Assembly (NCBI GenBank): GCA_018333395.1
Contig: JAGXSQ010000117.1
Span: 1-64,000 of the forward strand
DNA: 64,000 nucleotides
Reading direction: 5' to 3'
Source: Dethiobacter sp.
GTDB lineage: Bacteria; Bacillota_D; Dethiobacteria; Dethiobacterales; Dethiobacteraceae
The first letter of the stretch is position 1. The number at the start of each line of letters is the position of its first letter. This document shows positions 4,287 through 55,501 of this stretch, in pieces. A program made the translations under genes and the position numbers. The notes below the pieces were generated by a model, which worked only from the letters and a program-made list of their open reading frames with translations, searched no databases and was not told the origin of the DNA.

Positions 4287-7006
4287 TTGTTGACGGTAAC
4301 AGCTTGGTCTACCGTGCTTTTTTTGCTTTGCCGCTGTTGCAGAACAGTCAAGGTCTGTATACGAATGCTGTCTATGGGTTTGCCACAATGCTGCTGCGCT
4401 TGCTGGATGAGGAGAAGCCTGCCTACGTGATGGTGGTCTTCGACAAAGGCGGTCCTACCTTTCGCCATCGGCTGTTTGGTGAGTATAAAGCTAAACGGGA
4501 GAAGACCCCCTCAGAGTTGGTGGAGCAGCTGCCACGGGTCAGGGAACTGCTGGCAGCACTTGGTATCCCGGCACTGGAGGCGGATGACCTGGAGGCGGAC
4601 GACCTGATCGGCACTTTTTCCAGGCAAGCTGTGACACGTGGGGTCAGGCCAGTCGTCGTCAGCGGCGATGCCGATGTTTTGCAGCTAGTGGACCTGCCGG
4701 CGGAAATTATTTTTACACGACGCGGCATCTCTCAGACTGAAAGATACACGTCCAAAGAATTGAGGGCGCGCTTTGGTCTTACAGCATCCCAGTTTATTGA
4801 CTACAAGGCTCTCAAAGGCGACCAGTCCGACAATATCCCCGGCGTACCCGGTGTGGGTGAAAAGACGGCCAAGGATCTGCTTGGCCGGTTTGATTCACTG
4901 GACGGTATTTACGGACACCTTGACCAGTTGCCGAGTAAAAGTTTGCGGGAAAAGCTGGAAAAAAATCGGGAACAGGCCTATTTGAGCCGGCAACTGGCGA
5001 CCATAGAACTTAACGCGCCGGTTCCCTTCTTTTTAGAGGACTACAGGAGAACGAGCCCGGATTATACGGCTTTACATACTCTCTTTACACGGCTGGAGTT
5101 TAAAAGTATGTTGGAAAAGCTGCCGCTAGCGGATGTCGGGTGTCAAGGGTTGGCCTCTTGCTCCGAAGAAGAGCCGGCAAGCCGGCATGTTTCTGCTGAG
5201 CGTATTATCGTTATTGCCGCCTCGGATGAATGGCGCTATCTGCAAAAGGCAGTCGAGGCGAGCGGCCAAATCGCCGTATTGCCACAGCCGGCTACCTGTT
5301 CTTGGCGGGACAAGCCGCAAGGAATCATGATCGTCGCTCAGGAGGAGGTGTTTTATCTTCCAGTACAGGGAGACGGACCTCCAGCGGAGGCGGACATGTT
5401 TCTGGGCGAGTCTGTCTTTGCCGTAACATGTGACGCTAAGTCTTGGATTAACCTCTGCTTCCGCTGGTTTGGCCGCGAACCTGCTGGGCAGGTCTTTGAT
5501 GTGGCCTTGGCTGCCTACCTGCTTGATCCGCTGGAGAACGGCTACCCGCTCGACCGGCTAGCTAACCGCTATCTGGCAAGCGGTGGCCGGCGCGTGCCGT
5601 TTGCTTGGCCGCAGAGAGGTCGGCGGTCGGAGGGCAGGAGTCAGGGAACGATTAAAAACGGGACGGACAGAGACGAACTTTGCGCTGCGGCACGAGCGTT
5701 GTTGGACCTTTATCCGGTGCTGCGGGATAAGCTCGGGGAGTTTTCTCTGGAAAAGCTCTACGATGAGTTGGAGCTACCGCTGTCTTATACTTTAGCCCGG
5801 ATGGAAAGAGCGGGGATAGCTGTCGATTTGGCTACCCTAGCCGAACTGAAAAGGGAAATTTCCGGACGTGTGGCAGGCCTGGAGAAAGAAATTTATGACC
5901 TGGCCGGGGAGACTTTTAACCTGAACTCGCCCAAACAGCTGGCCGTTATTTTGTTTGAAAAACTTTCCCTGCCGGTATGGAAAAAAACCAAAACAGGTTA
6001 TTCCACCGATGCCGAAGTATTGGAGGAATTAGCGCCGCGCCATGAAATCGTGGCCAAGATTCTCTCCTACCGGATGCTTACGAAACTGCTGACTACTTAC
6101 CTGGAGGGGCTGGTTAAACTGGTCAACCCGGCGACCGGGCGCCTCCACACGACTTTTAACCAGACGGTGACAGCCACTGGGCGTTTAAGCAGCGCGGAGC
6201 CTAATTTGCAAAACATCCCTATCCGCCTGGATGAAGGTCGCCGAGTTCGGCGTGCCTTTGTGCCGGGCGGGAAAGGAATTTGCCTGCTTTCTGCTGACTA
6301 TTCGCAGATTGAGCTGCGCATCCTAGCGCATATTTCCGAAGACGAGGCGTTAAGGGGGTCTTTCTGCCGCGAGGAAGATATCCACCAGCGGACGGCGGCG
6401 GAGGTCTTCGGTGTAGAGCAGGAGCAGGTAACACGCCAGATGCGGGATCAGGCCAAGGCCGTTAATTTTGGCATCATTTACGGTATCAGTGATTATGGGC
6501 TTTCCCGCCAACTCGGTATCTCCAGGGCAGAGGCGCACCTTTATATTGAGCGCTACCTAGAGCGTTATCCGGGTGTGTGCCGCTATATTCGCCGCATAGT
6601 GGATGACGCCCGCCAGGCGGGCTATGTTACCACGCTGTTTGGACGCAGACGGTATCTCCCAGGCATCAACTCCCGCAACTTTGCTGAACGCAGCTTTGCT
6701 GAACGCACCGCTCTTAATACGCCCATCCAGGGCACGGCCGCCGATATTATCAAGCTGGCCATGCTACGCGTGGAAGAGGCGCTTAAAATGTGCGGCGCAC
6801 AAGTGCGGATGCTCTTGCAGGTCCATGATGAATTGGTCTTTGAGGCAGAGGAGGCCTCCTTGCCACTGGTGGGGAGTCTGGTGCGGGAAAAGATGGAGGG
6901 AGCCTTCCCGCTCTCTGTTCCGCTGACCGTAGAAGTTAAGGCCGGGCCTAACTGGGCTGAGATGGTCAGACTGGAAGCCCGTTTAAGGAGGGGAAAAGAT
7001 GCCTGA
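4259..7006 (+). CDS. polA: DNA polymerase I
   Basis: Repair and Okazaki-fragment polymerase, 915 residues, with a TTG start behind gggagg inside the anti-sigma gene. The N-terminal 5'-nuclease domain starts at FLIVDGNSLVYR and includes GDQSDNIPGVPGVGEKTA. The middle domain (about 300-500) shows no D-x-E exonuclease motif, so proofreading is probably lost, as in several Gram-positive PolA proteins. The polymerase domain has motif A (LLSADYSQIELRILAHIS), motif B (RDQAKAVNFGIIYG) and motif C (LQVHDELVFE). It overlaps mutM by 8 nt, matching the polA-mutM order of B. subtilis. Confidence 0.97.
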   Translation: MSDKADKFLIVDGNSLVYRAFFALPLLQNSQGLYTNAVYGFATMLLRLLDEEKPAYVMVVFDKGGPTFRHRLFGEYKAKREKTPSELVEQLPRVRELLAALGIPALEADDLEADDLIGTFSRQAVTRGVRPVVVSGDADVLQLVDLPAEIIFTRRGISQTERYTSKELRARFGLTASQFIDYKALKGDQSDNIPGVPGVGEKTAKDLLGRFDSLDGIYGHLDQLPSKSLREKLEKNREQAYLSRQLATIELNAPVPFFLEDYRRTSPDYTALHTLFTRLEFKSMLEKLPLADVGCQGLASCSEEEPASRHVSAERIIVIAASDEWRYLQKAVEASGQIAVLPQPATCSWRDKPQGIMIVAQEEVFYLPVQGDGPPAEADMFLGESVFAVTCDAKSWINLCFRWFGREPAGQVFDVALAAYLLDPLENGYPLDRLANRYLASGGRRVPFAWPQRGRRSEGRSQGTIKNGTDRDELCAAARALLDLYPVLRDKLGEFSLEKLYDELELPLSYTLARMERAGIAVDLATLAELKREISGRVAGLEKEIYDLAGETFNLNSPKQLAVILFEKLSLPVWKKTKTGYSTDAEVLEELAPRHEIVAKILSYRMLTKLLTTYLEGLVKLVNPATGRLHTTFNQTVTATGRLSSAEPNLQNIPIRLDEGRRVRRAFVPGGKGICLLSADYSQIELRILAHISEDEALRGSFCREEDIHQRTAAEVFGVEQEQVTRQMRDQAKAVNFGIIYGISDYGLSRQLGISRAEAHLYIERYLERYPGVCRYIRRIVDDARQAGYVTTLFGRRRYLPGINSRNFAERSFAERTALNTPIQGTAADIIKLAMLRVEEALKMCGAQVRMLLQVHDELVFEAEEASLPLVGSLVREKMEGAFPLSVPLTVEVKAGPNWAEMVRLEARLRRGKDA

Positions 7007-7859: not shown

Positions 7860-9860
7860 TCAGGAATTCACTAATTCGTCGGAAGACCGTAAACCACATT
7901 TTTTTAATTTACGGTAGAGGGTGGTACGGGCGATATTTAATTCCTTTGCGACTTTGGATAAATTTCCGTTGTGTTTTTTTAATAGTTCAATGAGTCGTTT
8001 CTTTTCATCTCCGGCTTCGAAAGTGATTATTTCTTGCGGGCTTTGTCCTTTAGGCTGTTTACACCGCTTAATTTCGTCGGGGACCACATCAACGGTAAGA
8101 GTGTCAGTTTTTAGCGTGTTAACGATCCTTTCCATGATGTTTTGTAATTGTCTTACGTTACCGGGCCAGTCGCAGGAAAGAAAGATGTCCATTACTTCAG
8201 GTGAAATGCGGTTGATAACTTTTTGTTGCTGATCCGCTATTTTTTGCATGAAATACTCAGCCAATTCCATAATATCTTCTTTTCTGTCCCTCAGAGGGAG
8301 TATGTTGATAGTCAGCACGTTTAGCCTGTAAAAGAGGTCATCTCTGAAGTTGCCTCTGCTGGCTTCGTGCCATAGGTTCTTGTTGGTGGCAGAAATAATT
8401 CTAACGTCTACCGGTATGGAATCGCCGCTGCCAATGCGCATGATTCTTTTTTCTTCAAGAACCCGAAGGAGGACAGACTGCAATTCTAGAGGCATATCTC
8501 CTATTTCATCCAGGAAAAGAGTGCCTCCGTCAGCAAGCTCGAATTTTCCTGGATTACCGCCTTTTTTGGCACCAGTAAACGCGCCTTCGGCATAACCAAA
8601 CAACTCGCTGCCAATTAAATCGCGTGGAATTCCGGAGCAGTTTATGGCCAGGAAGGGGCCTTCTCCCCGCTGGCTGCTATTGTGTATGGCCTGAGCAAAC
8701 ATTTCCTTGCCGGTACCGCTCTCGCCCAGGATTAGCACGTTGGATGAACTTTGTGCCGCATCTCTGGCGAGTTCTATCGATTGCCGGAACTTTTCGTTTT
8801 TGCCAATTAAATTGTCAAAGGTGAAATGAGCCTGACTGCGCAAAATCTGTTGCAGTAATTTTCGGGTTCTTTTTAATTCACTAAGCAGCAGCACTTTTCC
8901 GTGATTCTCATCGTGGTCGGCTGTTATTTGGCGTGAGGTAACGGTGCACTGGACTTTTTGGTGCGAAAAAAGGTTATAGATACTGATTTGCTGATCTGTA
9001 ACTTCTTCTTTTTGCATGATTACTTTTTTTAGAAGGCTATTTTGCGGACCAAGCACATGATGGATGTCTTGGTGAAGTGCTCTGCTTTCGCTGAAACCAA
9101 GTAAATGGCAACAAACATTGTTTACTTGAGTTATTTCACTTTTTTCGTTAACGGCAATTATTCCTTCTGCTATAGAGTCAATGATTTTTGCTTTCTGAGC
9201 GTTGGCAACCTCACAGCACATCCAGGCATTTCTGAGCGCCAATTCATTCTCAATGGCGTACACTGCCGCATAAACCATGCCAAGCGTATGGCTGTGTACG
9301 TTCTCGTAAAGGCCGGTCAAACAGAGCACGCCGCTAATTTTATTATCAGTTGGACTAGTAATGGGTGAAGCGGAGCAAGTCCACCTGTGTGAACACTTGC
9401 AGTAATGTTCGTGGGCGAAAACTTGTAAGGGACTACCGGCTACGAGGGCAGTACCGATAGCATTAGTGCCGGCAGATCGTTCGCTCCAGTTTGCACCGGG
9501 TCTAAAGTTACCTTTCTGCGAGGCTAGGACTATTTCAGGGTCACCTATAATTTTCAGGAGATAGCCTTCCTTATCTGCCAACGAGACGATGAAGCCGGAT
9601 CCGGAAACAAAATGGTAGAGCTTTTCCATGATGGGGAGAGCAATATTTATCAATTCCTGATTTGCTGCGCCCTTTTCATCAAGCTCTTGAAAACTAATAA
9701 CTTCTTCAACCTGAATCTGATGAGGGATAACCCCCCACTTTCTGCATCTTTCCCAGGAATCCAGAATAATCTGCCTGACTTCACCGGGCAGGACTTGTTT
9801 TGTGGCAGTGTACTCTTGCCAAATTCTTTTTAACGTTTCTTGTCGGTCTGATACTAGCAT
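7860..9860 (-). CDS. Sigma-54 dependent activator (AcoR/DhaR-like: GAF-PAS-AAA+-Fis)
   Basis: A 666-residue enhancer-binding protein. The N-terminal helix LDSWERCRKWGV is typical of AcoR/DhaR-type regulators and leads into a GAF-like sensor (about 60-190). A PAS-like segment follows (about 215-320; IDSIAEGIIAVNEKSEI). The AAA+ core has Walker A GESGTGKE, the sigma-54 contact loop GAFTGA and Walker B GGTLFLDEIGDMP. A C-terminal Fis-type helix-turn-helix (NLSKVAKELNIARTTLYRKL) ends the protein. It is divergent from the CoA-transferase operon, whose promoter is of sigma-54 type, and three palindromes lie 15-57 bp in front of its start codon. It is therefore the likely activator of that operon and perhaps autoregulated. 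The gene is visibly AT-richer than the housekeeping genes. The effector is unknown; a short-chain acid or acyl-CoA is a guess. Confidence 0.9.
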   Translation of the reverse strand: MLVSDRQETLKRIWQEYTATKQVLPGEVRQIILDSWERCRKWGVIPHQIQVEEVISFQELDEKGAANQELINIALPIMEKLYHFVSGSGFIVSLADKEGYLLKIIGDPEIVLASQKGNFRPGANWSERSAGTNAIGTALVAGSPLQVFAHEHYCKCSHRWTCSASPITSPTDNKISGVLCLTGLYENVHSHTLGMVYAAVYAIENELALRNAWMCCEVANAQKAKIIDSIAEGIIAVNEKSEITQVNNVCCHLLGFSESRALHQDIHHVLGPQNSLLKKVIMQKEEVTDQQISIYNLFSHQKVQCTVTSRQITADHDENHGKVLLLSELKRTRKLLQQILRSQAHFTFDNLIGKNEKFRQSIELARDAAQSSSNVLILGESGTGKEMFAQAIHNSSQRGEGPFLAINCSGIPRDLIGSELFGYAEGAFTGAKKGGNPGKFELADGGTLFLDEIGDMPLELQSVLLRVLEEKRIMRIGSGDSIPVDVRIISATNKNLWHEASRGNFRDDLFYRLNVLTINILPLRDRKEDIMELAEYFMQKIADQQQKVINRISPEVMDIFLSCDWPGNVRQLQNIMERIVNTLKTDTLTVDVVPDEIKRCKQPKGQSPQEIITFEAGDEKKRLIELLKKHNGNLSKVAKELNIARTTLYRKLKKCGLRSSDELVNS

Positions 9861-9875
9861 GGCAGACCCCTTTCC

Positions 9876-9917
9876 TGTAGCGCTACAGCGTAGCGATCGC
9901 TACACTGTAGCGCTACA
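9876..9917. promoter_or_regulatory. Triple palindrome, probable activator binding array
   Basis: Three perfect palindromes stand in a row: TGTAGCGCTACA (9876-9887), GTAGCGATCGCTAC (9890-9903) and TGTAGCGCTACA again (9906-9917). Their centres (9881.5, 9896.5, 9911.5) are exactly 15 bp apart, and the whole array is itself symmetric. It lies about 130-170 bp upstream of the -12 element of the sigma-54 promoter at 10032, a normal enhancer distance. It is also only 15 bp from the start codon of the divergent regulator. Best read as the upstream activating sequence for that regulator, which would also cover its own promoter. Confidence 0.75.
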
Positions 9918-10031
9918 CATTAGGTTGAAAAGGCAAAAAGTTGTGCTCTTCAGTTAGAGGCGATGGCAAAGTAGCATTAAAAAGGGGGGGGCAGGGCGTT
10001 TTCTATGAGAATGTTTCACCGCATTAATTAT

Positions 10032-10047
10032 TGGCACGTATTTTGCA
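10032..10047 (+). promoter_or_regulatory. Sigma-54 (-24/-12) promoter of the CoA-transferase operon
   Basis: The sequence TGGCACGTATTTTGCA fits the consensus TGGCACG-N4-TTGCW. Exactly 10 bp lie between the invariant GG (10033-10034) and GC (10045-10046). Expected transcription start is near 10058, giving an AT-rich leader of about 130 nt before the first gene at 10189. The rest of the 9861-10188 gap holds the palindrome array, an 8-G run near 9982 and no further recognised feature. Confidence 0.85.
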
Positions 10048-10188
10048 ATAGCAATTTGTAACAAATCATAAGGTGTTGAAAACATTATAAAACACATTAT
10101 CAAGAAGTGTAAAGCATAAGATTTGCGAATCGCTGCAAAACGATACATTTTCCGGAATGGAGAAAATCTGATGTGAGGAGAGAGTGCG

Positions 10189-11109
10189 ATGCCTGATTCC
10201 CCTGGAAGAAAAAGAACAGACAAGACAATGTCATTAGCGGAAGCGTTTAATTTGTTTATTAATAAGGGTGACAGCATTGCCTTCAGCGGCATGGGAGGTT
10301 CCCAGTGTGTCGCTCATACCTATGAACTTATTCGTCTCGGGTATAGTGGTATGACGCTTTTCGGAGATAGTCCCTGTGAGGCTGGTGATATGTTAATAGG
10401 TGCCGGAATTATAGACAGGGTTGAACTAGCGTGGTGCTCTTATGCGGTGGCGGGACTTGGCCATAACTATCGCCGGGCAGTGGAAGAAAATATTCCCGCA
10501 AAGATTGAAGTAAAAGAGTTTTCGAACTATACAATGGGCCTTCGTTTTTTAGCTGGGGCTATGAATTTACCGTTTTTGCCGACTAAATCGCTGCTAGGGT
10601 CAGCTTTGCCAACCTATAATGCGGATATCAAAGAGATAAAGTGTCCTTACACAGGTGATAAACTGGCACTAGTCCCTGCTGCTACGCCTGATGTGGCCGT
10701 GATACATGTTTCACGTGCTGATAAACGTGGTAATTGCCAGAACCTTGGCTTTACATCTAATGCGGAAAACATCGGGCGGGCAGCCAAGAGAACTGTAGTC
10801 ACCTGCGAAGAACTGGTAAGCACTGATGAGATTAGACGTAACGCTAATCTGACTTTTCTGCCCGAGTATTGTGTAGATGCAGTAATAGAGTTGCCTTTTG
10901 CTTCCCACCCCTGGAATTTTCCTTACTCCTATGCTTATGATATTCCCTTTCACGCACAGCAAATGGAGGCTTTCCGGACCAGAGAAGGTTTCGTAAAATG
11001 GTTGGATGAATGGTGTTTTGAAGCTGGCAGCTGGGACGGTTACTTAAAGAAAGTAGGTTGGGAGAGGCTTTTCAAGCTGCAGAAGATAGAAAAGCGTTTT
11101 TGTAAATGA
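10189..11109 (+). CDS. CoA-transferase subunit A (glutaconate CoA-transferase-like)
   Basis: The 306-residue alpha subunit of a family I two-subunit CoA-transferase, closest in pattern to GctA. After a polar N-terminus, the glycine motif FSGMGGSQCVAH and the stretch PDVAVIHVSRADKRGNCQ are typical of this fold. It would pair with the next gene, which carries the catalytic glutamate, to move CoA between an acyl-CoA donor such as acetyl-CoA and a carboxylic acid. ATG follows gaggagag. First gene of the sigma-54 operon. The substrate cannot be read from sequence; a C4 hydroxy acid is inferred from the dehydratase downstream. Confidence 0.85.
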   Translation: MPDSPGRKRTDKTMSLAEAFNLFINKGDSIAFSGMGGSQCVAHTYELIRLGYSGMTLFGDSPCEAGDMLIGAGIIDRVELAWCSYAVAGLGHNYRRAVEENIPAKIEVKEFSNYTMGLRFLAGAMNLPFLPTKSLLGSALPTYNADIKEIKCPYTGDKLALVPAATPDVAVIHVSRADKRGNCQNLGFTSNAENIGRAAKRTVVTCEELVSTDEIRRNANLTFLPEYCVDAVIELPFASHPWNFPYSYAYDIPFHAQQMEAFRTREGFVKWLDEWCFEAGSWDGYLKKVGWERLFKLQKIEKRFCK

Positions 11110-11139: not shown

Positions 11140-12030
11140 ATGGGTTATGCCAGCGATTACACACTTGCTGAATTGTTAGTGGCCACAGCGGCTAGGGAGA
11201 TAAAAGACGGCGATGTTGTTTTTGTCGGGGTGGGCATTCCCGGTTTAGGGGCCGGGTTGGCTAAGCTGACGCATGCGCCGAATATGATTATGGCCATGGA
11301 GTGTGGCAGTATTGGCTCTCAATCTTATAGGCTGGTTCTTGGCATCGGTGACAATGCTTGTGTGGAAAATGCCATCTGCAACACTTCGCTCTGGCGGCTT
11401 TTTTCAGACCAACAGAGAGGTTATTTTGATGTCGGGATGATATCAGGCGCCCAAGTAGATAAGTATGGAAACCTAAACAGCACCACAATCATCGGTAACC
11501 GTAGCTATCAGCAACCAAAGACTAGGTTGCCCGGCAGCGGTGGCGCCAACGATATTGCCAGTTCGGCACGTAAAACAATATTAATGATTAATATGCAGGC
11601 GCGCCGCTTTATGGAGAGAGTCGATTACATTACCTCGCCGGGTTATCTGGATGGCTACGAGGCGCGCGAAAAAGCTGGCCTGCTGGGAGGAGGCCCCGAG
11701 GCTATTATTACCGATAAGTGCCTTATGCGTTTTGACCCTGTTACAAAAGAAGCTTTTGTGGCAAGTGTGCATCCGGGGGCCACGATGGAAGAGATAAAGT
11801 CACTGGTGAGCTGGGACTTAAAGTTCAGCCCAGATTTGCAGGAGACAGAGCCCCCCACGGATGAACAGGTCAGAGTAACAAGGACACTTGATTCAGAAGG
11901 TATTTACTTGAGGGGTGGCCTCAAAGGATTAACCTTCGACAGATATATGGCGATGTTGGAGAATTCCAGGGATGTTTTGTCAAAGGTGTTTATGAAGAAG
12001 TTATATAGTGGAGATGAAGACCAATGTTAA
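11140..12030 (+). CDS. CoA-transferase subunit B (catalytic, GctB-like)
   Basis: The 296-residue beta subunit. Glutamate 54 in MAMECGSIGS lies at the position of the catalytic Glu54 known in Acidaminococcus fermentans GctB, which forms the glutamyl-CoA thioester intermediate. The glycine-rich PGSGGANDIASSA and DKCLMRF segments also fit the family. ATG is preceded by gggggag. It overlaps the SDR gene by 7 nt. Together with the preceding gene it would activate the operon's substrate without ATP. Usual 4-hydroxybutyrate CoA-transferases (AbfT/Cat2) are single-chain, so a two-subunit enzyme next to a 4-hydroxybutyryl-CoA dehydratase homologue is a variation. Confidence 0.85.
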   Translation: MGYASDYTLAELLVATAAREIKDGDVVFVGVGIPGLGAGLAKLTHAPNMIMAMECGSIGSQSYRLVLGIGDNACVENAICNTSLWRLFSDQQRGYFDVGMISGAQVDKYGNLNSTTIIGNRSYQQPKTRLPGSGGANDIASSARKTILMINMQARRFMERVDYITSPGYLDGYEAREKAGLLGGGPEAIITDKCLMRFDPVTKEAFVASVHPGATMEEIKSLVSWDLKFSPDLQETEPPTDEQVRVTRTLDSEGIYLRGGLKGLTFDRYMAMLENSRDVLSKVFMKKLYSGDEDQC

Positions 12031-12785
12031 CAGATTTTTCGCTAACGGGTAGGGTTGCTATAGTTACCGGCGCTACAAAAGGCCTTGGGCGAGGGATAGC
12101 CCACGGCCTGGCAGAAGCAGGGGCAAAACTTGTGGTAGTTAGCCGCAATCAGAAAGAGTGTGACGCCGTGGCTTTGGAGTTGCAAGAAAAAGGTGTGTCG
12201 TCGCTAGCTTACGCCGCTGACCTGCGCAATCTCGCTTCTATTCAAGCTCTTGTCGAGGCAGTGGTTAAGCAATTCGGCCGCATTGATATCCTGATCAATA
12301 ATGCCGGAGCTGCCGTCACAAAACCTCCCGAGGCCATGACGGAAGAGGAATGGGATTTTGTTATGGATCTAAATCTGAAGGGGGCCTTTTTCACGGCTCA
12401 ACAGGTAGGCTCGCAAATGATTAAGCAGCAGTACGGAAAAATCATTAATATCGGATCCATCTTCAGCTTTGTGGGAGATGCCAATATAGTTTCTTACTGC
12501 GCCAGCAAGGGAGGACTTGTCCAAATGACAAGGTCGCTGGCCTTAGCTTGGGCGCGCCATAATATCAGCGTAAATGCCATAGCTCCAGGCTATATCACAA
12601 CTGAATTGAATAAGGAAACGCTAAACGAGGGAAAAGTATTTAACCATCTTATGAAGAATACACCTGCCAGAAGGTTAGGGGAAGTAAAGGATGTAGTAGG
12701 AGCCGCAGTATTCCTCGCTTCATCAGCTTCTGACTATATGACTGGGCAAAGTATCGTAATTGATGGCGGTTGGTTGGCGCACTAG
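12024..12785 (+). CDS. Short-chain dehydrogenase/reductase (3-hydroxyacid/3-hydroxyacyl type)
   Basis: Classical SDR of 253 residues. It has the cofactor motif TGATKGLG (15-22), NNAG (92-95), catalytic Ser145, Tyr158 and Lys162 (YCASK), and the C-terminal DGGW. Such proteins include FabG-like ketoacyl reductases, acetoacetyl-CoA reductase and 3-hydroxybutyrate dehydrogenase; sequence alone does not decide. In an operon with AtoE-type transport and acetoacetyl-CoA synthetase nearby, oxidation of 3-hydroxybutyrate to acetoacetate is a reasonable inference. Start overlaps gctB-like by 7 nt, so translation is coupled. Confidence 0.85.
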   Translation: MLTDFSLTGRVAIVTGATKGLGRGIAHGLAEAGAKLVVVSRNQKECDAVALELQEKGVSSLAYAADLRNLASIQALVEAVVKQFGRIDILINNAGAAVTKPPEAMTEEEWDFVMDLNLKGAFFTAQQVGSQMIKQQYGKIINIGSIFSFVGDANIVSYCASKGGLVQMTRSLALAWARHNISVNAIAPGYITTELNKETLNEGKVFNHLMKNTPARRLGEVKDVVGAAVFLASSASDYMTGQSIVIDGGWLAH

Positions 12786-12822
12786 CGGATGTTGTAAAAA
12801 TAAATAACTGAGAGGAAGTGCT

Positions 12823-14277
12823 TTGAAAATGATGACAGGTAAGGAATATATTGATAGTTTGCGGCAGTTGAAAACGGTTGTTTACGCGTTCGGGGAAAAG
12901 TTGGATAATATTGTGGACCATCCATTAATCAAGCCCCATGTTAATGCGGCAGCAACTACTTATGAAATGGCGCATGACCCGGAGTTTGAAGACTTGGTAA
13001 CGGCCACTTCGCATCTGACCGGAGAAAAAGTCAGTCGCTTTACCCATATCCATCACAGCACAGATGACCTTATCAAGAAAGTAAAAATGCTGCGGGCTAT
13101 CGCACAGCGTACCGGTTCCTGCTACCAGCGCTGTGTAGGTTTTGACGGTATTAACGCCCTTTATGCTACTACTTATGAAATAGATCAGAAGTATGGCACC
13201 AACTACCATGAAAGAATGAAAGACTTCGTTAAATACCTGCAAAAGACGGATAAAATGGTCGCTGGTTCCATGACTGATCCGAAAGGTGATAGGGGGTTAT
13301 CTCCAGGTAAGCAGACTGATCCTGACATGTACGTACGTGTTGTGGAGAAGAACGAAAAAGGTATTGTCATCCGCGGAGCTAAGGCACACCAGACAGGTGT
13401 CGTTAATTCTCACGAAATGCTGATTATGCCCACCATTGCTTTGGATGAAACAGAGAAGGATTATGCTGTGGCTTGCGCTATCCCAGTGGACGCCCCTGGT
13501 GTATTGCATATCTTTGGCCGGCAGACTAATGACACTCGCAAATTTGATGAAATGGACCAAGGCAATGCTTGCTTCGGAGCGGTAGGCGGAGAGGCGCTGA
13601 CCGTACTGGAAGATGTTTTTGTACCATGGGAGCGGGTGTTTATGTGCGGTGAATACGATTTTGCCGGCATGATGGTGGAGCGTTTCGCCTGCTACCACCG
13701 TCAGAACTACGGCGGATGCAAAGGCGGTGTTAGCGATATTCTCATAGGCGCCACAGCGGCCATGGCAGAAATGAATGGAGTGGCGAAAGCTTCGCATATT
13801 AGGGATAAAATTGTCGAGATGATTCACCTGGCGGAAACAATTTACTGTGGCTCAGTAGCTTGCTCCAGCCAGGGAAGGCCGCTACCGTGTGGTTCATACT
13901 TTGTAGACCCGCTGCTCGCCAACGTCACAAAACTTAATGTCACCAGAAATATTTATGAGATCTGTCGCTTGAGTCACGATATCGCCGGAGGCCTCTTGGC
14001 TACTACGCCATCGGAACAAGATTTAAACCACCCTGAGGTTGGTAAGTACGTGGAGAAGTACAGCAAAGGAGTGGATTCTGTGCCCGCTATCGAGCGCCTG
14101 CGCATGGCAAGGTTGCTGGAAAACATGACAGGTGGTACAGCACTTGTGGAGAGCATGCATGGAGCCGGTTCACCTCAGGCGCAACGTGTAATGATACTTC
14201 GCCAAGGTAATCTTGCGCATAAAGTTAAAATGGCCAAAAGGCTGGCCAGCCGTGATCGATCGGGCAATGAAAGATAA
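12823..14277 (+). CDS. abfD: 4-hydroxybutyryl-CoA dehydratase / vinylacetyl-CoA isomerase homologue
   Basis: The 484-residue flavin and [4Fe-4S] dehydratase. The characterised Clostridium enzyme turns 4-hydroxybutyryl-CoA into crotonyl-CoA through a ketyl radical. All four cluster ligands known there are present: C100 and C104 (SCYQRCVG), H292 and C299 (YHRQNYGGCK). The active-site residues E257, Y296 and K300, the HQTG threonine and the glutamate in ESMHGAGSPQAQR are also kept. TTG is preferred as start (AGAGGAAG 7 nt upstream); ATG at 12829 is the alternative. The enzyme is oxygen-sensitive, which fits an anaerobe. The crotonase needed for the next step is not in the window. Exact substrate is inferred from family residues. 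Confidence 0.9.
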   Translation: MKMMTGKEYIDSLRQLKTVVYAFGEKLDNIVDHPLIKPHVNAAATTYEMAHDPEFEDLVTATSHLTGEKVSRFTHIHHSTDDLIKKVKMLRAIAQRTGSCYQRCVGFDGINALYATTYEIDQKYGTNYHERMKDFVKYLQKTDKMVAGSMTDPKGDRGLSPGKQTDPDMYVRVVEKNEKGIVIRGAKAHQTGVVNSHEMLIMPTIALDETEKDYAVACAIPVDAPGVLHIFGRQTNDTRKFDEMDQGNACFGAVGGEALTVLEDVFVPWERVFMCGEYDFAGMMVERFACYHRQNYGGCKGGVSDILIGATAAMAEMNGVAKASHIRDKIVEMIHLAETIYCGSVACSSQGRPLPCGSYFVDPLLANVTKLNVTRNIYEICRLSHDIAGGLLATTPSEQDLNHPEVGKYVEKYSKGVDSVPAIERLRMARLLENMTGGTALVESMHGAGSPQAQRVMILRQGNLAHKVKMAKRLASRDRSGNER

Positions 14278-14285
14278 CCTTTTTA

Positions 14286-14618
14286 ATGATGGCTATGAAG
14301 ATGCCTGCTAAAATAGCCGTCAAATTCTGCGGGAACTGCAACCCGCAAATATCCTGCGGAGAAATCTTAAAAGAGATAAAAACTAAAGCCGCGAGTAGGT
14401 TGCCGGCGGCGGAGTTTGTATCTTGGGACTCCCCGGAGACAGATGTATTACTGGTAATCAGCGGCTGTCCTGTGGATTGTGCCGCTAGGCCTCAGGGTAG
14501 CGCTGAGGAAATTGTTGTGGCCGGCGAGTCGGTTAACACTGTTGGTTGTGGAGCAGACCAAATAAGCAAGCGCGTGCTTGATATTCTACAGCGCCTAATG
14601 GCTGGGAGGGAGAAATAA
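14286..14618 (+). CDS. Small Cys-rich protein of unknown function
   Basis: About 110 residues, not assigned to a named family. Six cysteines: C15, C18 and C24 in FCGNCNPQISC, C61 and C65 in SGCPVDCA, and C88 in VGCG. The segment ETDVLLVISG is a hydrophobic strand ending in the second cysteine pair, so it looks like a small alpha/beta protein binding a metal or Fe-S cluster. It sits 8 nt after the dehydratase and abuts the thiolase start, so it belongs to the operon. A role in cluster assembly, electron supply or activation of the dehydratase is speculation. Start is ambiguous among ATGs at 14286, 14289, 14295 and 14301; no strong ribosome-binding site precedes the first. Confidence 0.75.
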   Translation: MMAMKMPAKIAVKFCGNCNPQISCGEILKEIKTKAASRLPAAEFVSWDSPETDVLLVISGCPVDCAARPQGSAEEIVVAGESVNTVGCGADQISKRVLDILQRLMAGREK

Positions 14619-15800
14619 TTGGGTAAAGAGATTGTGATTATTGACGGTTGCCGTTCACCTATCGGCGATTTTGGCGGGGCGTTCAAAGAGTTCTTGCCGT
14701 CTAATCTTGCTGTTCCCGTGGTGCAGGCCTTAATGGAGAAAACAGGCGTGGATAAAGCGCTGGTTGAAGAAATAATACTCGGCCAGTGCCTCCAGCGGAC
14801 TGACGACGCCAATACTGCCCGGGTGGTGGCGCTGAAGGCTGGGTTCCCCAAAGAAACTACCGGAGTTACTGTGCAGAGGCAGTGCAGTTCTGCGATGCAG
14901 GCCATTATTCAAGGATATCATGAGTTATATCACGGTGATGTAGACATGGTTATCGCAGGCGGTGTGGAAGTAATGAGTTCTTCGCCTTATGTGCTAAAAG
15001 CCGCTCGTTGGGGACAGCGCCTGCAGCACGGCGGCATGCATGACACCGTCTGGGAAATACTGACTGACCCGGTGGCTAACATTATGATGGGTGTGACTGC
15101 AGAAAATCTGGCGGAGAAATATGGGATTACCCGGGATGAACAGGATGAAGTAGCTTTCCAGAGCCATGCTAAGGCCATAAAAGCTGCCAAAGAGGGACTT
15201 TTCAGCGAAGAAATTGTGCCCATTTCTGTGCCTAGAGGCAAAAAAGCGCCGCTAGTAGTTGATAAGGATGAGCACCCGCGTGAAGATATTGACAGGGAAA
15301 AGCTGGCCCAGTTGCCGGCCGCTTTTCGCAAAGACGGTACAGTTACCGCGGGTAATGCTTCCGGAATTAATGACGGAGCGGCAGCGGTACTGATGACGAC
15401 GGCGGAACGCGCCCGGCAACTCGGGTTAGAGCCCATGGGCAGGATAATATCTTTTGCCTGGGCGGGTGTGGAGCCGGAGTTAATGGGCTACGGCCCTGTG
15501 CCGGCGACGAAAAAAGCCTTGCAAAGAGCAGGATTAACCATTGATGATATGGAGCTGATCGAGGTTAACGAAGCCTTTGCCGCTCAATACCTGGCCTGTG
15601 AAAAGTTATTGGGGTTGAACAGGCAAATAACTAATGTTAATGGCAGCGGTATAGGCTTGGGACATCCAGTCGGCTGCACAGGAACGCGTATTGTGGTTAC
15701 ATTATTGCACGAAATGGCTAGGCGCAGTCTCCGCTACGGCCTAGCTACTCTCTGTGTCGGCGGCGGGATGGGAGTGTCTTTGATTGTGGAAAGAACTTAA
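14619..15800 (+). CDS. Acetyl-CoA C-acetyltransferase (thiolase)
   Basis: The 393-residue thiolase would cleave acetoacetyl-CoA to two acetyl-CoA. Nucleophile Cys89 (QRQCSSAMQ), His349 (GHP) and Cys379 (LCVGGGMG) match the catalytic triad positions of Zoogloea thiolase, and NEAFA is present. The loop around the histidine reads NGSGIGLGHPVGCTG, not the usual NGGAIALGHPIGASG, so it belongs to a less common subgroup and its acyl preference may differ. TTG start with gggaggg upstream, directly abutting the stop of the Cys-rich protein. Confidence 0.93.
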   Translation: MGKEIVIIDGCRSPIGDFGGAFKEFLPSNLAVPVVQALMEKTGVDKALVEEIILGQCLQRTDDANTARVVALKAGFPKETTGVTVQRQCSSAMQAIIQGYHELYHGDVDMVIAGGVEVMSSSPYVLKAARWGQRLQHGGMHDTVWEILTDPVANIMMGVTAENLAEKYGITRDEQDEVAFQSHAKAIKAAKEGLFSEEIVPISVPRGKKAPLVVDKDEHPREDIDREKLAQLPAAFRKDGTVTAGNASGINDGAAAVLMTTAERARQLGLEPMGRIISFAWAGVEPELMGYGPVPATKKALQRAGLTIDDMELIEVNEAFAAQYLACEKLLGLNRQITNVNGSGIGLGHPVGCTGTRIVVTLLHEMARRSLRYGLATLCVGGGMGVSLIVERT

Positions 15801-15824
15801 AAGTAGGCACGGGAGGGGATTAGT

Positions 15825-16685
15825 ATGGAGATAAAAACTATTGGGGTTGTCGGTAGCGGTTTGATGGGCAGTGGTATTGCGCAGGTAGCCTTGCAGGCCG
15901 GATACAAAGTGATTCTAAATGATGTTAAAGAAGAATTTATTAGCAAGGGCATTAGTATAATGCGGAATAATTTGCACCGGGACATAAAAAAAGGCCGGAA
16001 AACTGCTGAGGAAATGGAGCAGATGCTATCCTGCCTAGCCACAACCACGGAGCTTTCTGATCTGTCAATCGCGGACTTGGTTATTGAAGCTGTATTTGAG
16101 CGGATGGAGGTCAAAAAACAGCTCTTTGCCGCTCTTTGTAAAATCTGCAAGTCCGATACCTGCCTTATTTCGAACACCTCTGGACTTAGTATTACGGAAA
16201 TCGCTTCCGCGACAAAAAGGTCTGATAAGGTGGTGGGGTTGCACTTTTTTAACCCGGTCCCCTTAATGAAGCTTGTAGAGGTCATCAGAGCTTATGACAC
16301 CTCAGATGAAACGTTTGACATGGCTTGGGACCTTTCCATCAAACTTGGCAAGGAACCGATAGCCGTGCAGGACGCTCCTCTCTTCGCTGTCAACAGGATA
16401 CTGGTTCCCATGATTAATGAAGCAATCCTTGTTTTGTCGGAAGGTATAGCCACCGCCGAGGATATCGATAAAGGGCTGAGGCTTGGCGCAAGCCACCCCA
16501 TGGGCCCCTTGGCGTTAGCCGATTTAATCGGGCTCGATACTCTGCTCATGGTTCAGGAGACGCTCTATAAAGAAACCGCAGACTCCAAATACCGCCCCGC
16601 ATTGCTGTTAAAACAACTAGTAAGAGCAGGTCATTACGGCCGCAAGACGGGACGAGGCTTTTACAACTATGAAGTGATTATGTAG
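15825..16685 (+). CDS. hbd: 3-hydroxyacyl-CoA (3-hydroxybutyryl-CoA) dehydrogenase
   Basis: The 286-residue NAD-dependent dehydrogenase oxidises (S)-3-hydroxybutyryl-CoA to acetoacetyl-CoA. The Rossmann motif [11 protein letters not shown] is at residues 10-20. N117 and S119 lie in NTSGLS, the catalytic H140 in [15 protein letters not shown], and the C-terminal domain ends with the family signature [14 protein letters not shown] has a gggagggg ribosome-binding site. It is the last gene before a 198-nt gap to the transporter. With the thiolase it completes a crotonyl-CoA to acetyl-CoA route, apart from the hydratase step. Confidence 0.94.
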
Positions 16686-16850: not shown

Positions 16851-16886
16851 GGGAGGTGAAAGCAGGCTTTTGCCTGCGGCACAATG
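16851..16886 (+). promoter_or_regulatory. Shine-Dalgarno separated from ATG by a small hairpin
   Basis: A strong GGGAGGTG (16851-16858) lies some 25 nt before the only usable ATG (16884). That is far too distant unless the intervening perfect hairpin GCAGGC-TTTT-GCCTGC (16862-16877) forms. With the hairpin folded, effective spacing shortens to about 10 nt. I see no alternative in-frame start codon nearer to the Shine-Dalgarno. Confidence 0.6.
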
Positions 16887-18233
16887 ATCAATTCATTAGC
16901 TAAACCATTTGTTCGTTTTGTGGAAAGGTATTATCCAGACCCGTACATTTTTGCGTTACTGCTTACTTTCCTAGCGTATATCATGGCTTTTCTCTTTACA
17001 GATACTACGTTTATTGGTGCTGTTACGGCCTGGGGCGGCGGTTTTGCCGGTTTAATGGCCTTTATCGCCCAAGTGGGTTTTACTTTGCTTTCCAGCTCGG
17101 CTCTTGCTAATACGCGTCCTGTTAAAAGGTTCTTGCAAAAAATTGCGGGCCTGCCTAACAGTGCGGCGACCTCTTATGCTTTGGCAGCCTTTGTGACGGC
17201 TATTGCCAGCTTGATTGCCTGGGCGCTGGGATTAATCGCGGGGGGCATTTTGGCGCGTCACATCCAGTACCAAGCTCAAAAGAAGGGGATTAAGGTTCAC
17301 TATCCCCTGCTCGTAGCGGCAGCTTATTCCGGCTTTGTGATCTGGCATATGGGCTACTCCGGCAGTGCCCAATTAATGGTGGCCACGCCAGGTCATGCCA
17401 TGGAAGCCTTGATCGGCATCATCCCTGTCTCCGCTACTCTTTTCGCGGGTTATAATTTGTTAGGAATAGTTTTCCTGGTCATCACACTCCCGATATTGGC
17501 GGCTTTAATGAAACCCAAGGACTCGGACAGGATTGTCGAGCTTTCTGATGAGGTGATGGCTCAAATTACGGAAGAAGGTCACGCCGCTACAGCCAAAGAA
17601 GCTCCACCCGCAACTTTTGGCGAAAAACTGGAGAGAATGCGGTGGATTAACATTGTTGCCGGCGCCCTGATGGCCATATTTCTGTTCAACCATTTCTCTA
17701 ATAGGGGAATGGACTTGAATTTGAACATCGTGAACTGGTCATTTCTGACCCTCGGGCTGCTCCTGTCGAATTCACCTATTCACTATGTGGGATTGATCAA
17801 TGCAGCCGCAAAAAACGTCGGACCGATACTGCTGCAGTATCCTTTTTATGCGGGCTTGATGGGCCTGATGGGAGGCACCGGCTTGGTCAAGGTCTTGTCG
17901 GAGTGGTTTATAGTCGTGGCCAACGCGGAAACGCTGCCGGTCTTTGCGTTCTGGTCAGCAGGCATATTGAATATGTTTATTCCCTCCGGCGGTGGTCAGT
18001 GGGCGGTCCAGGGCCCGATAATGCTTGGGGCGGCAAGCTCCTTAGGGGTAAGTCCGGCCGTTATTGTCAATGCTGTGGCTTACGGTGACCAGTGGACAAA
18101 CATGATTCAACCTTTTTGGTCCATTCCCCTCCTGGCAGTTGCGGGTCTTAAAATGCGTGACATGATGGGGTACTGTTTTATTACGCTGATCTATACCGGT
18201 GTGGTTTTTTCAGTATTGTTGCTCATAGCTTGA
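16884..18233 (+). CDS. atoE: Short-chain fatty acid transporter, AtoE family
   Basis: A 449-residue multi-spanning membrane protein of the SCFA_trans family. AtoE of E. coli takes up short-chain fatty acids such as acetoacetate and butyrate. The N-terminus VERYYPDPYIFALLLTF, the segment VIWHMGYSGSAQLMVATPGH and the loop IPSGGGQWAVQGP are family hallmarks. There are roughly a dozen hydrophobic segments, with a charged cytoplasmic loop around residues 208-250. It probably imports the substrate of the neighbouring enzymes. A 13-bp inverted repeat follows, then a sigma-54 promoter for the next gene. Confidence 0.92.
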   Translation: MINSLAKPFVRFVERYYPDPYIFALLLTFLAYIMAFLFTDTTFIGAVTAWGGGFAGLMAFIAQVGFTLLSSSALANTRPVKRFLQKIAGLPNSAATSYALAAFVTAIASLIAWALGLIAGGILARHIQYQAQKKGIKVHYPLLVAAAYSGFVIWHMGYSGSAQLMVATPGHAMEALIGIIPVSATLFAGYNLLGIVFLVITLPILAALMKPKDSDRIVELSDEVMAQITEEGHAATAKEAPPATFGEKLERMRWINIVAGALMAIFLFNHFSNRGMDLNLNIVNWSFLTLGLLLSNSPIHYVGLINAAAKNVGPILLQYPFYAGLMGLMGGTGLVKVLSEWFIVVANAETLPVFAFWSAGILNMFIPSGGGQWAVQGPIMLGAASSLGVSPAVIVNAVAYGDQWTNMIQPFWSIPLLAVAGLKMRDMMGYCFITLIYTGVVFSVLLLIA

Positions 18234-54575: not shown

Positions 54576-55370
54576 TTAACTACCGCTTTCGTGACGCAAC
54601 GTCCCTTTTGCTTTATCCATCCAGTAGGTGTACCGCTTCTTACCCTTGGTGGAGCGGCCGAACTCAATCGCTGCCTCCGGACAGAAATTTACACAGCACA
54701 TGCAGTGCTCGCACCCAGCCTTCCAGCGGGGGCGGGCATCGCTGTCTAGCGCAATGCACTGCGTCGGGCACATGGTAACGCAGGCTCCGCAGCCCGTGCA
54801 CGCGTCGTTGGCACGGTAGAAGCGCCCCATGTAGTTGAGGCCGAATAGGAACATGCGATGCGCAAGGGCGAGGGGGCCAAAGCGGCTATAGTGCGGCAAT
54901 GTAGATGCCGCGTCGCCTAGCGCTGCCAGCAACTCGGCCACCTTTGCTCTGCCTGCCGCGACGATTTCTGCCGCTTTGCTGTCCGCATCTGCCTCGCTAA
55001 AGACAATGTAGTTGTTGGGCATACGCACCCAATCCGCCAACTTAACATGGTAGCCCTTTTGGCTCAAGGCCCGGGCTACAGCAGCAGGCGCGGGCCCCGC
55101 CGTACCTGCTGCGTTGGCGACGACAATCGCCGCCTTTCCTTCCCCCGGTGGTAACGACCGCACGAAGTTGACGATAATGCGCGGGGCGCCAAAACAGTAA
55201 ACCGGGAAGAAGACTCCTATCAGGTCGGCCGGACAGAGCTCGCGATGGCTAGCAACATCGCGTAGGGTTATCGCGGTGCCCTGCTGCGAGATAGTCTCGC
55301 CTGCAGCTTCGGCTAAAGCCTTGGTGTTGCCAGTGCCAGAGAAATAGTAGAATGTAGCAGTACGATACAT
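54576..55370 (-). CDS. EFR1-type flavodoxin/ferredoxin fusion protein
   Basis: Redox protein of about 264 residues. The N-terminal flavodoxin-like domain has the FMN-phosphate loop FSGTGNT (near residue 10). The C-terminus has two [4Fe-4S] motifs, CTGCGACVTMCP and CEHCMCCVNFCP. The second is irregular (extra Cys at CMCC). The likely start is the ATG at 55370, behind gtgaggtt on the reverse strand; the frame is open further upstream. It interrupts the otherwise forward-strand ribosomal/spore cluster and lies next to IS21 remnants, so recent insertion is likely. Electron partner is unknown. Confidence 0.88.
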   Translation of the reverse strand: MYRTATFYYFSGTGNTKALAEAAGETISQQGTAITLRDVASHRELCPADLIGVFFPVYCFGAPRIIVNFVRSLPPGEGKAAIVVANAAGTAGPAPAAVARALSQKGYHVKLADWVRMPNNYIVFSEADADSKAAEIVAAGRAKVAELLAALGDAASTLPHYSRFGPLALAHRMFLFGLNYMGRFYRANDACTGCGACVTMCPTQCIALDSDARPRWKAGCEHCMCCVNFCPEAAIEFGRSTKGKKRYTYWMDKAKGTLRHESGS

Positions 55371-55437
55371 GAGCAACCTCACTTTCTTAGTCCCGGTTTG
55401 GGCTCGCTTGCACGGGTAGGGCAAAAGCTGTGTCCAT

Positions 55438-55482
55438 GGCGCTTCAAAGTTGACCCTTTTCGGCACTTGAATTTTGACCCCC
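55438..55482. repeat. IS21-type terminal repeats (relic)
   Basis: On the reverse strand two related direct repeats are seen: GGGTCAAAATTCAAGTGCCG (55461-55480) and GGGTCAACTTTGAAGCGCC (55438-55456). They share GGGTCAA, AAG and GCC at the same spacing. IS21-family ends typically carry several such copies. No matching other end is visible in the window. Confidence 0.6.
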
Positions 55483-55501
55483 AAAAGATGAACTGACTCT
55501 T

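Follow-up and report, generated by a model that had tools for sequence, protein, structure and literature searches.

An array of three adjacent palindromes lies at 9876-9917 of a 64-kb stretch of DNA (contig JAGXSQ010000117.1, positions 1 to 64,000; hereafter the window), between the gene of a transcriptional activator and a divergent operon that is probably of the butyrate/4-hydroxybutyrate type. Because the regulator belongs to the sigma-54 activator family, a consensus sigma-54 promoter lies downstream of the array, and the half-site TGTAGC tracks the recognition helix across relatives of this protein, the array very probably serves as the enhancer (upstream activating sequence) for the activator encoded at 7860-9860, with a probability of about 0.8 as judged from sequence comparison. 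Its units are somewhat better read as three 16-17-bp sites joined by an ACA-N1-TGT junction than as three compact palindromes of 12-14 bp. The features flanking the array are as follows.

7860..9860, minus strand: AcoR/DhaR-type sigma-54 activator of 666 aa, assigned by Pfam scan, NCBIfam and translation
10031..10047, plus strand: sigma-54 (-24/-12) promoter TTGGCACGTATTTTGCA, with GG at 10033-10034, GC at 10045-10046 and a predicted start near 10058

Geometry of the palindrome array

Direct reading of the sequence places palindrome 1, TGTAGCGCTACA, at 9876-9887 (centre 9881.5), where it extends to 14 bp as CTGTAGCGCTACAG at 9875-9888. The middle palindrome, GTAGCGATCGCTAC, occupies 9890-9903 (centre 9896.5), and palindrome 3 at 9906-9917 (centre 9911.5) is again TGTAGCGCTACA, so that the two outer copies are both perfect and identical. 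The centres are exactly 15 bp apart, as the initial annotation had stated, and together the palindromes form one 42-bp dyad with symmetry at 20 of 21 base pairs. The equal spacing is no independent oddity, because a central palindrome within a larger dyad that has two flanking copies forces it. The regulator start codon ends at 9860 on the minus strand, and the 15 bases from there to the array (9861-9875) also agree with the earlier count. On the other side, the sigma-54 motif reads TTGGCACG-TATT-TTGCA at 10031-10047, which confirms the consensus promoter claimed earlier; 113 bases, rather than the 115 bp first given, separate its first T from the end of the array at 9917.

The palindrome cluster and the dyad are far beyond chance. 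A single palindrome is ordinary, as the window holds 14 perfect palindromes of at least 12 bp where 16.5 (sd 3.1) are expected from 40 dinucleotide shuffles. A trio whose centres fall within 31 bp is found once in the window and in none of the 40 shuffles. Similarly, the best 42-bp symmetry per shuffle was 14-16 (20 shuffles) and the runner-up in the real window reaches 17, as compared with 20 for the array. No other copy of TGTAGCGCTACA was found in the window at up to one mismatch, and its core GTAGCGCTAC is not enriched in the genome of a relative, G001 (43 places versus 64 for the reversed control, at up to one mismatch).

The activator

The claim that the regulator is a sigma-54 family activator is borne out by its domains. 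The translation contains a GAF domain at residues 70-203 (PF01590, E 4.2e-9), a PAS domain at 224-320 (PF00989, E 9.3e-10), an AAA+ sigma-54 interaction domain at 351-518 (PF00158, E 4.5e-68) that carries GAFTGA, and a C-terminal Fis-type HTH_8 at 619-654 (PF02954, E 2.7e-11); the protein thus combines N-terminal GAF and PAS sensors with the AAA+/GAFTGA and HTH_8 parts of the family. The DhaR chain 4lrx_C matches residues 29-336 (E 9.6e-11). The recognition helix, NIARTTLYRKLKK (NIARTTLYRK), is of the AR[ST]T class. The activator falls below the NCBIfam cut-off for all 25 models shown of the 34 matching, the best being PrdR (415 versus 795 required) and DhaR (412 versus 551 required). No AcoR model is among these 25, and a relative at 76% identity bears the name AcoR in its source record. 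Beyond locus L001, proteins related to the regulator at 55-98% identity comprise P0002 and P0004-P0009, and a scan of viral contigs found no relative.

Sites and half-sites beside related activators

Activator matches were used only if they reached residue 645 and started by residue 60, and 205 of them were reduced to 149 non-redundant activators by dropping any with more than half of its six-residue words in common; L128 was removed in this way as too like L130 but retained in the site lists. There were 83 places without a locus, of which 80 were retrieved. Scanning 450 bp either side of the 149 activators (296 regions; 20 shuffles) revealed 135 TGT-N11-ACA sites as compared with 28.8 (sd 5.1) in shuffles, a strong enrichment, followed by 48 TGT-N12-ACA (27.6) and 39 TGT-N10-ACA (27.9). 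The TGT-N6-ACA form of the window's outer palindromes is barely enriched (40 versus 28.1, sd 5.8). At least one exact N11 site occurs beside 85 of the 149 activators, and an 18- or 19-bp tandem beside 14. Exact N11 pairs within 60 bp number 30, most often at a pitch of 18 bp (10), 43 bp (6) or 19 bp (4), and shuffles yield 0.6 pairs in all. The initial annotation had described the 15-bp period as unlike the usual helical phasing; since 18 bp, likewise a non-integral number of turns, is the commonest pitch (10 of 30 pairs), a non-integral pitch is common in this activator family and the contrast finds no support. The 15-bp triple palindrome had also been proposed to define an operator grammar of its own. 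Exact TGT-N6-ACA pairs at 15 or 30 bp occur at none of the 148 other non-redundant activator loci, and the only exact N6 pairs within 60 bp are those of the window (30 bp) and L130 (18 bp), which argues against a shared grammar of this kind.

Several other layouts were observed. In L021 and L032, with GRTT/GRST helices, three sites stand at +19 and +43, which may be a layout for three dimers, and +18 pairs are found with six activators that have AR[ST]T helices. Upstream of the activator in L089 are four TGT-N12-ACA sites, the later ones 11, 22 and 54 bp from the first, which are roughly helically phased, unlike the 18-bp tandems.

The commonest arms differ by helix: TGTTCC with GRNT, TGTATC/TGTTTC with GRST, TGTTTC with GRTT, TGTCCG with ARSS (3 activators) and TGTAGC/TGTTGT with ARTT; SRST, SRNT, SRTT and ARNT helices have no clear favourite arm. 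Among the 149 activators, a TGTAGC-armed N11 site lies near 6 of 15 with an AR[ST]T helix versus 2 of 134 others (Fisher p 9e-6), and at least two TGTAGC hexamers within 60 bp are found beside 6 of 15, the window among them, versus 1 of 134. The pattern had already been noticed when these two tests were framed, and their statistics ignore kinship. In part of the AcoR-type family, helix residues co-vary with half-site bases 4-6, which may represent a specificity code. The six-base clusters seen near the first activator loci were largely noise from A+T-rich sequence; they were informative for the Sporomusa loci L040 and L053 and for Clostridium loci with GAAACA.

Site register within the array

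A matrix for the N11 site was built from 16 sites, which score 11.6-20.8. Applied to the window, the longer register gives three sites.

9871..9887, no strand assigned: putative 17-bp site 1, left arm degenerate and right arm GCTACA intact, holding palindrome 1; N11 score 7.3
9889..9904, no strand assigned: putative 16-bp site 2, CGT-N10-ACA, holding the middle palindrome; score 14.7, the best N10 match in the window
9906..9922, no strand assigned: putative site 3 (promoter-proximal), TGTAGCGCTACACATTA, holding palindrome 3; N11 score 7.2

In this register the sites are centred near 9879, 9896.5 and 9914, and the outer arms of the outer two are worn. The half-sites alternate direction six times, with forward anchors at 9876, 9889 and 9906 and reverse anchors at 9887, 9904 and 9917, and the junctions at 9885-9891 (ACA-G-CGT) and 9902-9908 (ACA-C-TGT) match, exactly or almost, the ACA-N1-TGT of the relatives' 18-bp tandems. 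The middle site is one change from TGT-N10-12-ACA, and the outer sites fit it only with a degenerate far arm. The window keeps the half-site, the junction and the promoter distance of its relatives, but not their within-site spacing. Counterparts of site 3 are TGTAGCGCTACACAACA in L130 and TGTAGCGCTGCACAACT in L001. The strongest TGT-N11-ACA match in the window lies elsewhere, at 55353; it was rejected as an enhancer and attributed to chance, being inside an open reading frame (54576-55484) with no sigma-54 promoter beside it by eye.

Relatives with the dehydratase operon

A search of 398 genomes sampled from the phylum located the dehydratase of the divergent operon in 42 of them, at 58 places, and 20 neighbourhood stretches covering 21 of these places were examined. 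An activator-like match is present in 12 of the 20 (L126-L131, L136, L138, L140 and L142-L144), and in six of these (L126, L131, L136 and L142-L144) the match is weaker or partial and the activator has another helix. In L127, L128 and L130 the dehydratase gene comes immediately after that of an activator (47-50% identity), and the gap holds TGTAGC-armed 17-bp TGT-N11-ACA sites at 18 bp, followed by a sigma-54 promoter; the array there lies behind the activator's stop codon. The promoter-proximal site starts with TGTAGCGCTA in these three loci and in the window. The distance from its start to the -24 GG is 127 bp in the window, 127 in L127, 129 in L130 and 130 in L128, where a preceding match (offset 32) was disregarded because its GG-GC spacing is 9 rather than 10. 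The value for the window falls in the 100-250 bp range of TGT-N10-12-ACA enhancers. L127, L128, L130, L149, L086, L138 (=L163) and L140 (=L164) fit TGT-N10-12-ACA exactly. The exact tandem TGTAGC-N8-ACA-N1-TGTAGC occurs once each in four of seven genomes (G123, G170, G205 and G471), always adjoining the activator gene. L138 has three pairs: one lies ahead of the activator's own sigma-54 promoter, another, in which an arm is altered, comes after the gene, and the last stands in front of the dehydratase operon. L142 has an activator with another helix before the dehydratase and a sigma-54 promoter, with no TGTAGC pair, and in L129 an activator lies near the operon and no site pair was seen.

The DNA comparison among close orthologs rests on L001 (76% identity), the only one of the 80 loci retrieved by the activator protein to have the operon too, within the flanks covered. 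L001 has the same divergent order, the sigma-54 promoter TTGGCATAAAACTTGCA and a match to sigma-70 promoters that would serve the regulator. The array itself has decayed there: a near-perfect site 3 remains, the middle site retains CGTAGCG and lies 5 bp further off, and site 1 is poor. The check proposed with the initial annotation, a search for the same array upstream of orthologous pairs, consequently fails in L001 as regards the exact triple array and its spacing, and the half-sites persist. These comparisons suggest that what is inherited is the half-site, its match to the helix, the short junction and roughly the promoter distance, and that within-site spacing can drift.

If the array is the enhancer of the activator, its dimers would read the TGTAGC half-sites through the HTH_8 recognition helix, side by side on three adjacent sites, and would assemble into an AAA+ ring. 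The ring would then loop over about 110-130 bp and open the sigma-54 promoter at 10031-10047, which would drive the CoA-transferase/4-hydroxybutyryl-CoA-dehydratase/thiolase operon when the GAF-PAS part senses its signal.

Alternative readings

A number of observations weigh against the enhancer reading with units of 16-17 bp. The window array has no exact TGT-N11-ACA site, and sites 1 and 3 score 7.2-7.3. The far arm of site 3 is TTA in the window and ACT in L001 instead of ACA, so the compact form is better kept and would be the register favoured in this lineage. In L001 the promoter-proximal site is 107 bp from the GG versus 127 in the window, 20 bp nearer the promoter, and the distance is 120 bp in L086 and 69 bp in L149. 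Among the AR[ST]T activators, 9 of 15, including those of the window and L001, have no N11 site with TGTAGC arms in the 450 bp scanned; of these nine, the window and the Sporomusa loci L040 and L053 carry TGTAGC clusters in another layout, and L001, L042, L129, L161, L243 and L057 have no cluster of exact TGTAGC hexamers. A TGT/ACA tandem 12-24 bp apart lies beside just 5 of the 12 activators near a dehydratase (L127, L128, L130, L138 and L140). The exact tandem is absent from three of the seven genomes (G001, G156 and G437), and at up to two mismatches it has 33 matches as compared with 28 for the reversed control. The alternative that three dimers occupy three compact palindromes at exact 15-bp pitch, as an operator grammar with NorR-like sites, is possible but rather unlikely. 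NorR reads compact sites of the form GT-N7-AC, which is close to the GT-N6-AC found here. Both outer palindromes are perfect and identical, and the bases of TGTAGCGCTACA are kept in site 3 of the window (12 of 12), L130 (12 of 12), L128 (11), L001 (11) and L127 (10). This conservation of the compact form of site 3 means that both registers may matter. Nevertheless, it is the N11 and not the N6 form that is strongly enriched in the family, exact N6 pairs at 15 or 30 bp are confined to the window among the 149 loci, and in L001 sites 2 and 3 are 5 bp further apart and site 1 is degraded. The inner spacing of the middle palindrome is also N10 versus N6 in the outer two, so three like dimers would need to bind unlike sites. 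A combined account, which seems doubtful, is that the enhancer was rebuilt in this lineage by squeezing 17-bp sites, inherited at an 18-bp pitch, into a 42-bp dyad of near-perfect symmetry whose outer sites offer overlapping TGT-N6-ACA and TGT-N11-ACA registers. Either a compact complex of three dimers or a standard tandem could then form on this one piece of DNA, and a symmetric, orientation-neutral enhancer might serve both divergent genes.

Other readings concern the regulator gene itself, upstream of which two further elements were noted.

10084..10113, minus strand: candidate sigma-70 promoter of the regulator, TTTACA-N18-TATAAT, 11/12 consensus, predicted start near 10077
10131..10147, no strand assigned: conserved block CGCTGCAAAACGATACA, of which 12 contiguous bases (10136-10147) are identical in L001

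The initial annotation took the proximity of the array to the start codon to suggest autorepression. That the array serves as the operator for repression by the activator of its own gene at the start codon is unlikely, even though the array ends 15 bp from the ATG and autoregulation is common in divergent regulator pairs. The candidate sigma-70 promoter (10113-10084) is about 170-200 bp upstream of the array, with a start about 215 bp upstream of the ATG, and a weaker match (9/12) at 10054-10027 on the regulator strand is likewise upstream; the scan of this strand gave no match between the array and the ATG. If the start near 10077 is real, the array is transcribed leader and not promoter. These are motif matches, and their number (2 promoter-like sites versus 1.0, sd 1.1, in shuffles) is within chance; the best of them recurs in L001 as TTTACA-N17-TATACT (L001 5737-5765) in the same relative place, where 36 bp separate the ends of the -10 and of TTGCA, as compared with 37 in the window. 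Furthermore, the array of L127, L128 and L130 is behind the activator's stop codon, and the sigma-54 promoter between the sites and the activator gene of L138 suggests self-activation in that locus. The regulator may be autoregulated by another route, and a roadblock in its leader is possible. It is very unlikely that the palindrome acts as RNA, with a leader hairpin before the Shine-Dalgarno sequence controlling translation of the regulator. The leader (10077-9855) does fold with a 19-bp hairpin at 9917-9876 (z -5.29, none of 200 shuffles as stable), and GGAAAGGGG before the start codon, in the Shine-Dalgarno region, is predicted to pair with CCCCUUUUU at 9987-9979. An RNA role is not favoured, since the L001 leader folds hardly better than its shuffles (z -0.53, 60 of 200 as stable) while the DNA half-sites persist, and in L127, L128 and L130 the half-sites are outside the activator leader. 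Least probable of all is a dispersed repeat, terminator or chance palindrome with no regulatory role. Single 12-bp palindromes do occur at the expected frequency, but neither the cluster nor the dyad was matched in shuffles, and the absence of further copies of TGTAGCGCTACA in the window and of enrichment of GTAGCGCTAC in G001 speaks against a repeat. A terminator was rejected, as no T-run follows the array on either strand and the sole terminator-like site lies elsewhere, at 9803-9821.

Possible opposed promoters and the intergenic region

The operon's sigma-54 promoter and the candidate sigma-70 promoter of the regulator point towards one another (window 10031-10113), such that each transcript would traverse the other promoter, and L001 shows this layout again (5737-5817). 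Their starts, near 10058 and 10077, cross if the sigma-70 promoter is real, and the two may therefore hinder one another. From the motif positions, such mutual hindrance may be a better candidate for feedback than occupancy of the start codon. The conserved block CGCTGCAAAACGATACA is 17 bases upstream of the regulator -35 hexamer. Its TGT-N11-ACA-like score is 5.6 in the window and 8.1 in L001, versus 11.6-20.8 for the matrix sites; it is possibly a second operator or a site for another factor. A run of eight G at 9984-9991, between the array and the promoter (C in the regulator leader), is predicted to pair with the Shine-Dalgarno region and corresponds to a gap in the L001 alignment.

The divergent operon

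The genes on the far side of the sigma-54 promoter are listed below; those from 12024 to 16685 are presumed to belong to the operon.

10189-11109, plus strand: CoA-transferase subunit A (Pfam PF01144), first gene of the divergent operon
11140-12030, plus strand: CoA-transferase subunit B (Pfam PF01144)
12024-12785, plus strand: SDR oxidoreductase (short-chain dehydrogenase; NCBIfam)
12823-14277, plus strand: 4-hydroxybutyryl-CoA dehydratase/vinylacetyl-CoA isomerase-like protein (1u8v, E 4.6e-182; 6vjr, E 5.3e-164)
14286-14618, plus strand: small protein of 110 aa
14619-15800, plus strand: thiolase (NCBIfam)
15825-16685, plus strand: 3-hydroxybutyryl-CoA dehydrogenase (NCBIfam)
16884..18233, plus strand: short-chain fatty acid transporter, AtoE-like (PF02667, E 1.7e-129), after a gap

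The enzymes suggest the use or making of 4-hydroxybutyrate or butyrate, and the AtoE-like transporter is possibly the last gene of the operon. The small protein has no Pfam or NCBIfam match at E 0.001; L001 nevertheless encodes a relative of it, as do L127, L129 and L131 next to their dehydratase gene. Judging by its relatives, the host is probably an anaerobic Bacillota bacterium. An uncharacterised activator is thereby tied to a probable 4-hydroxybutyrate/butyrate-type operon and supplied with a likely half-site, and a helix-to-half-site code for AcoR-type activators becomes testable. A limited search of the literature found, in the parts of the texts available, no statement of an 18- or 15-bp pitch, of +19/+43 arrays or of a helix code.

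Comparison with known systems

The closest described class is that of the TGT-N10-12-ACA enhancers of Fis-type sigma-54 activators in Clostridiales (Nie, Dong and Yang 2019, PMC6615313). According to the available parts of that paper, 39 activator groups were defined, 15 of them with TGT/ACA arms 10-12 bp apart and 32 with several sites per target, and the abfD-linked activator XanR is among the groups with a distinct motif. The window shares with these enhancers TGT/ACA arms in inverted orientation, more than one site ahead of a single sigma-54 promoter, and a distance that is mostly 100-250 bp; in that class the activator gene also usually adjoins its target, and the targets include butyrate-type operons, one with abfD. 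In contrast, the window has a CGT-N10-ACA middle site and a compact TGT-N6-ACA at both ends. Its half-site is TGTAGC, and the published groups were compared with it by text.

NorR offers a second parallel. Three enhancers in the norR-norVW intergenic region are essential for activation and scaffold the activator ring, as described in the portion of the source available (PMC2941729). The window likewise has three sites in a divergent intergenic region and a GAF-regulated activator. Unlike NorR, which senses nitric oxide, the activator of the window has an added PAS domain.

The AcoR-type activators of the Sporomusa loci L040 and L053 belong to the same protein family, with the helix IARSTLYRK, and the operon of L040, recognised by eye from its translations, looks like an acetoin dehydrogenase operon. 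As in the window, TGTAGC/GCTACA half-sites are clustered, four at a time, before a sigma-54 promoter; unlike in the window, they are mostly direct repeats 10-16 bp apart and form no triple palindrome. The array of the window is thus probably a member of a known enhancer class in an unusual local arrangement.

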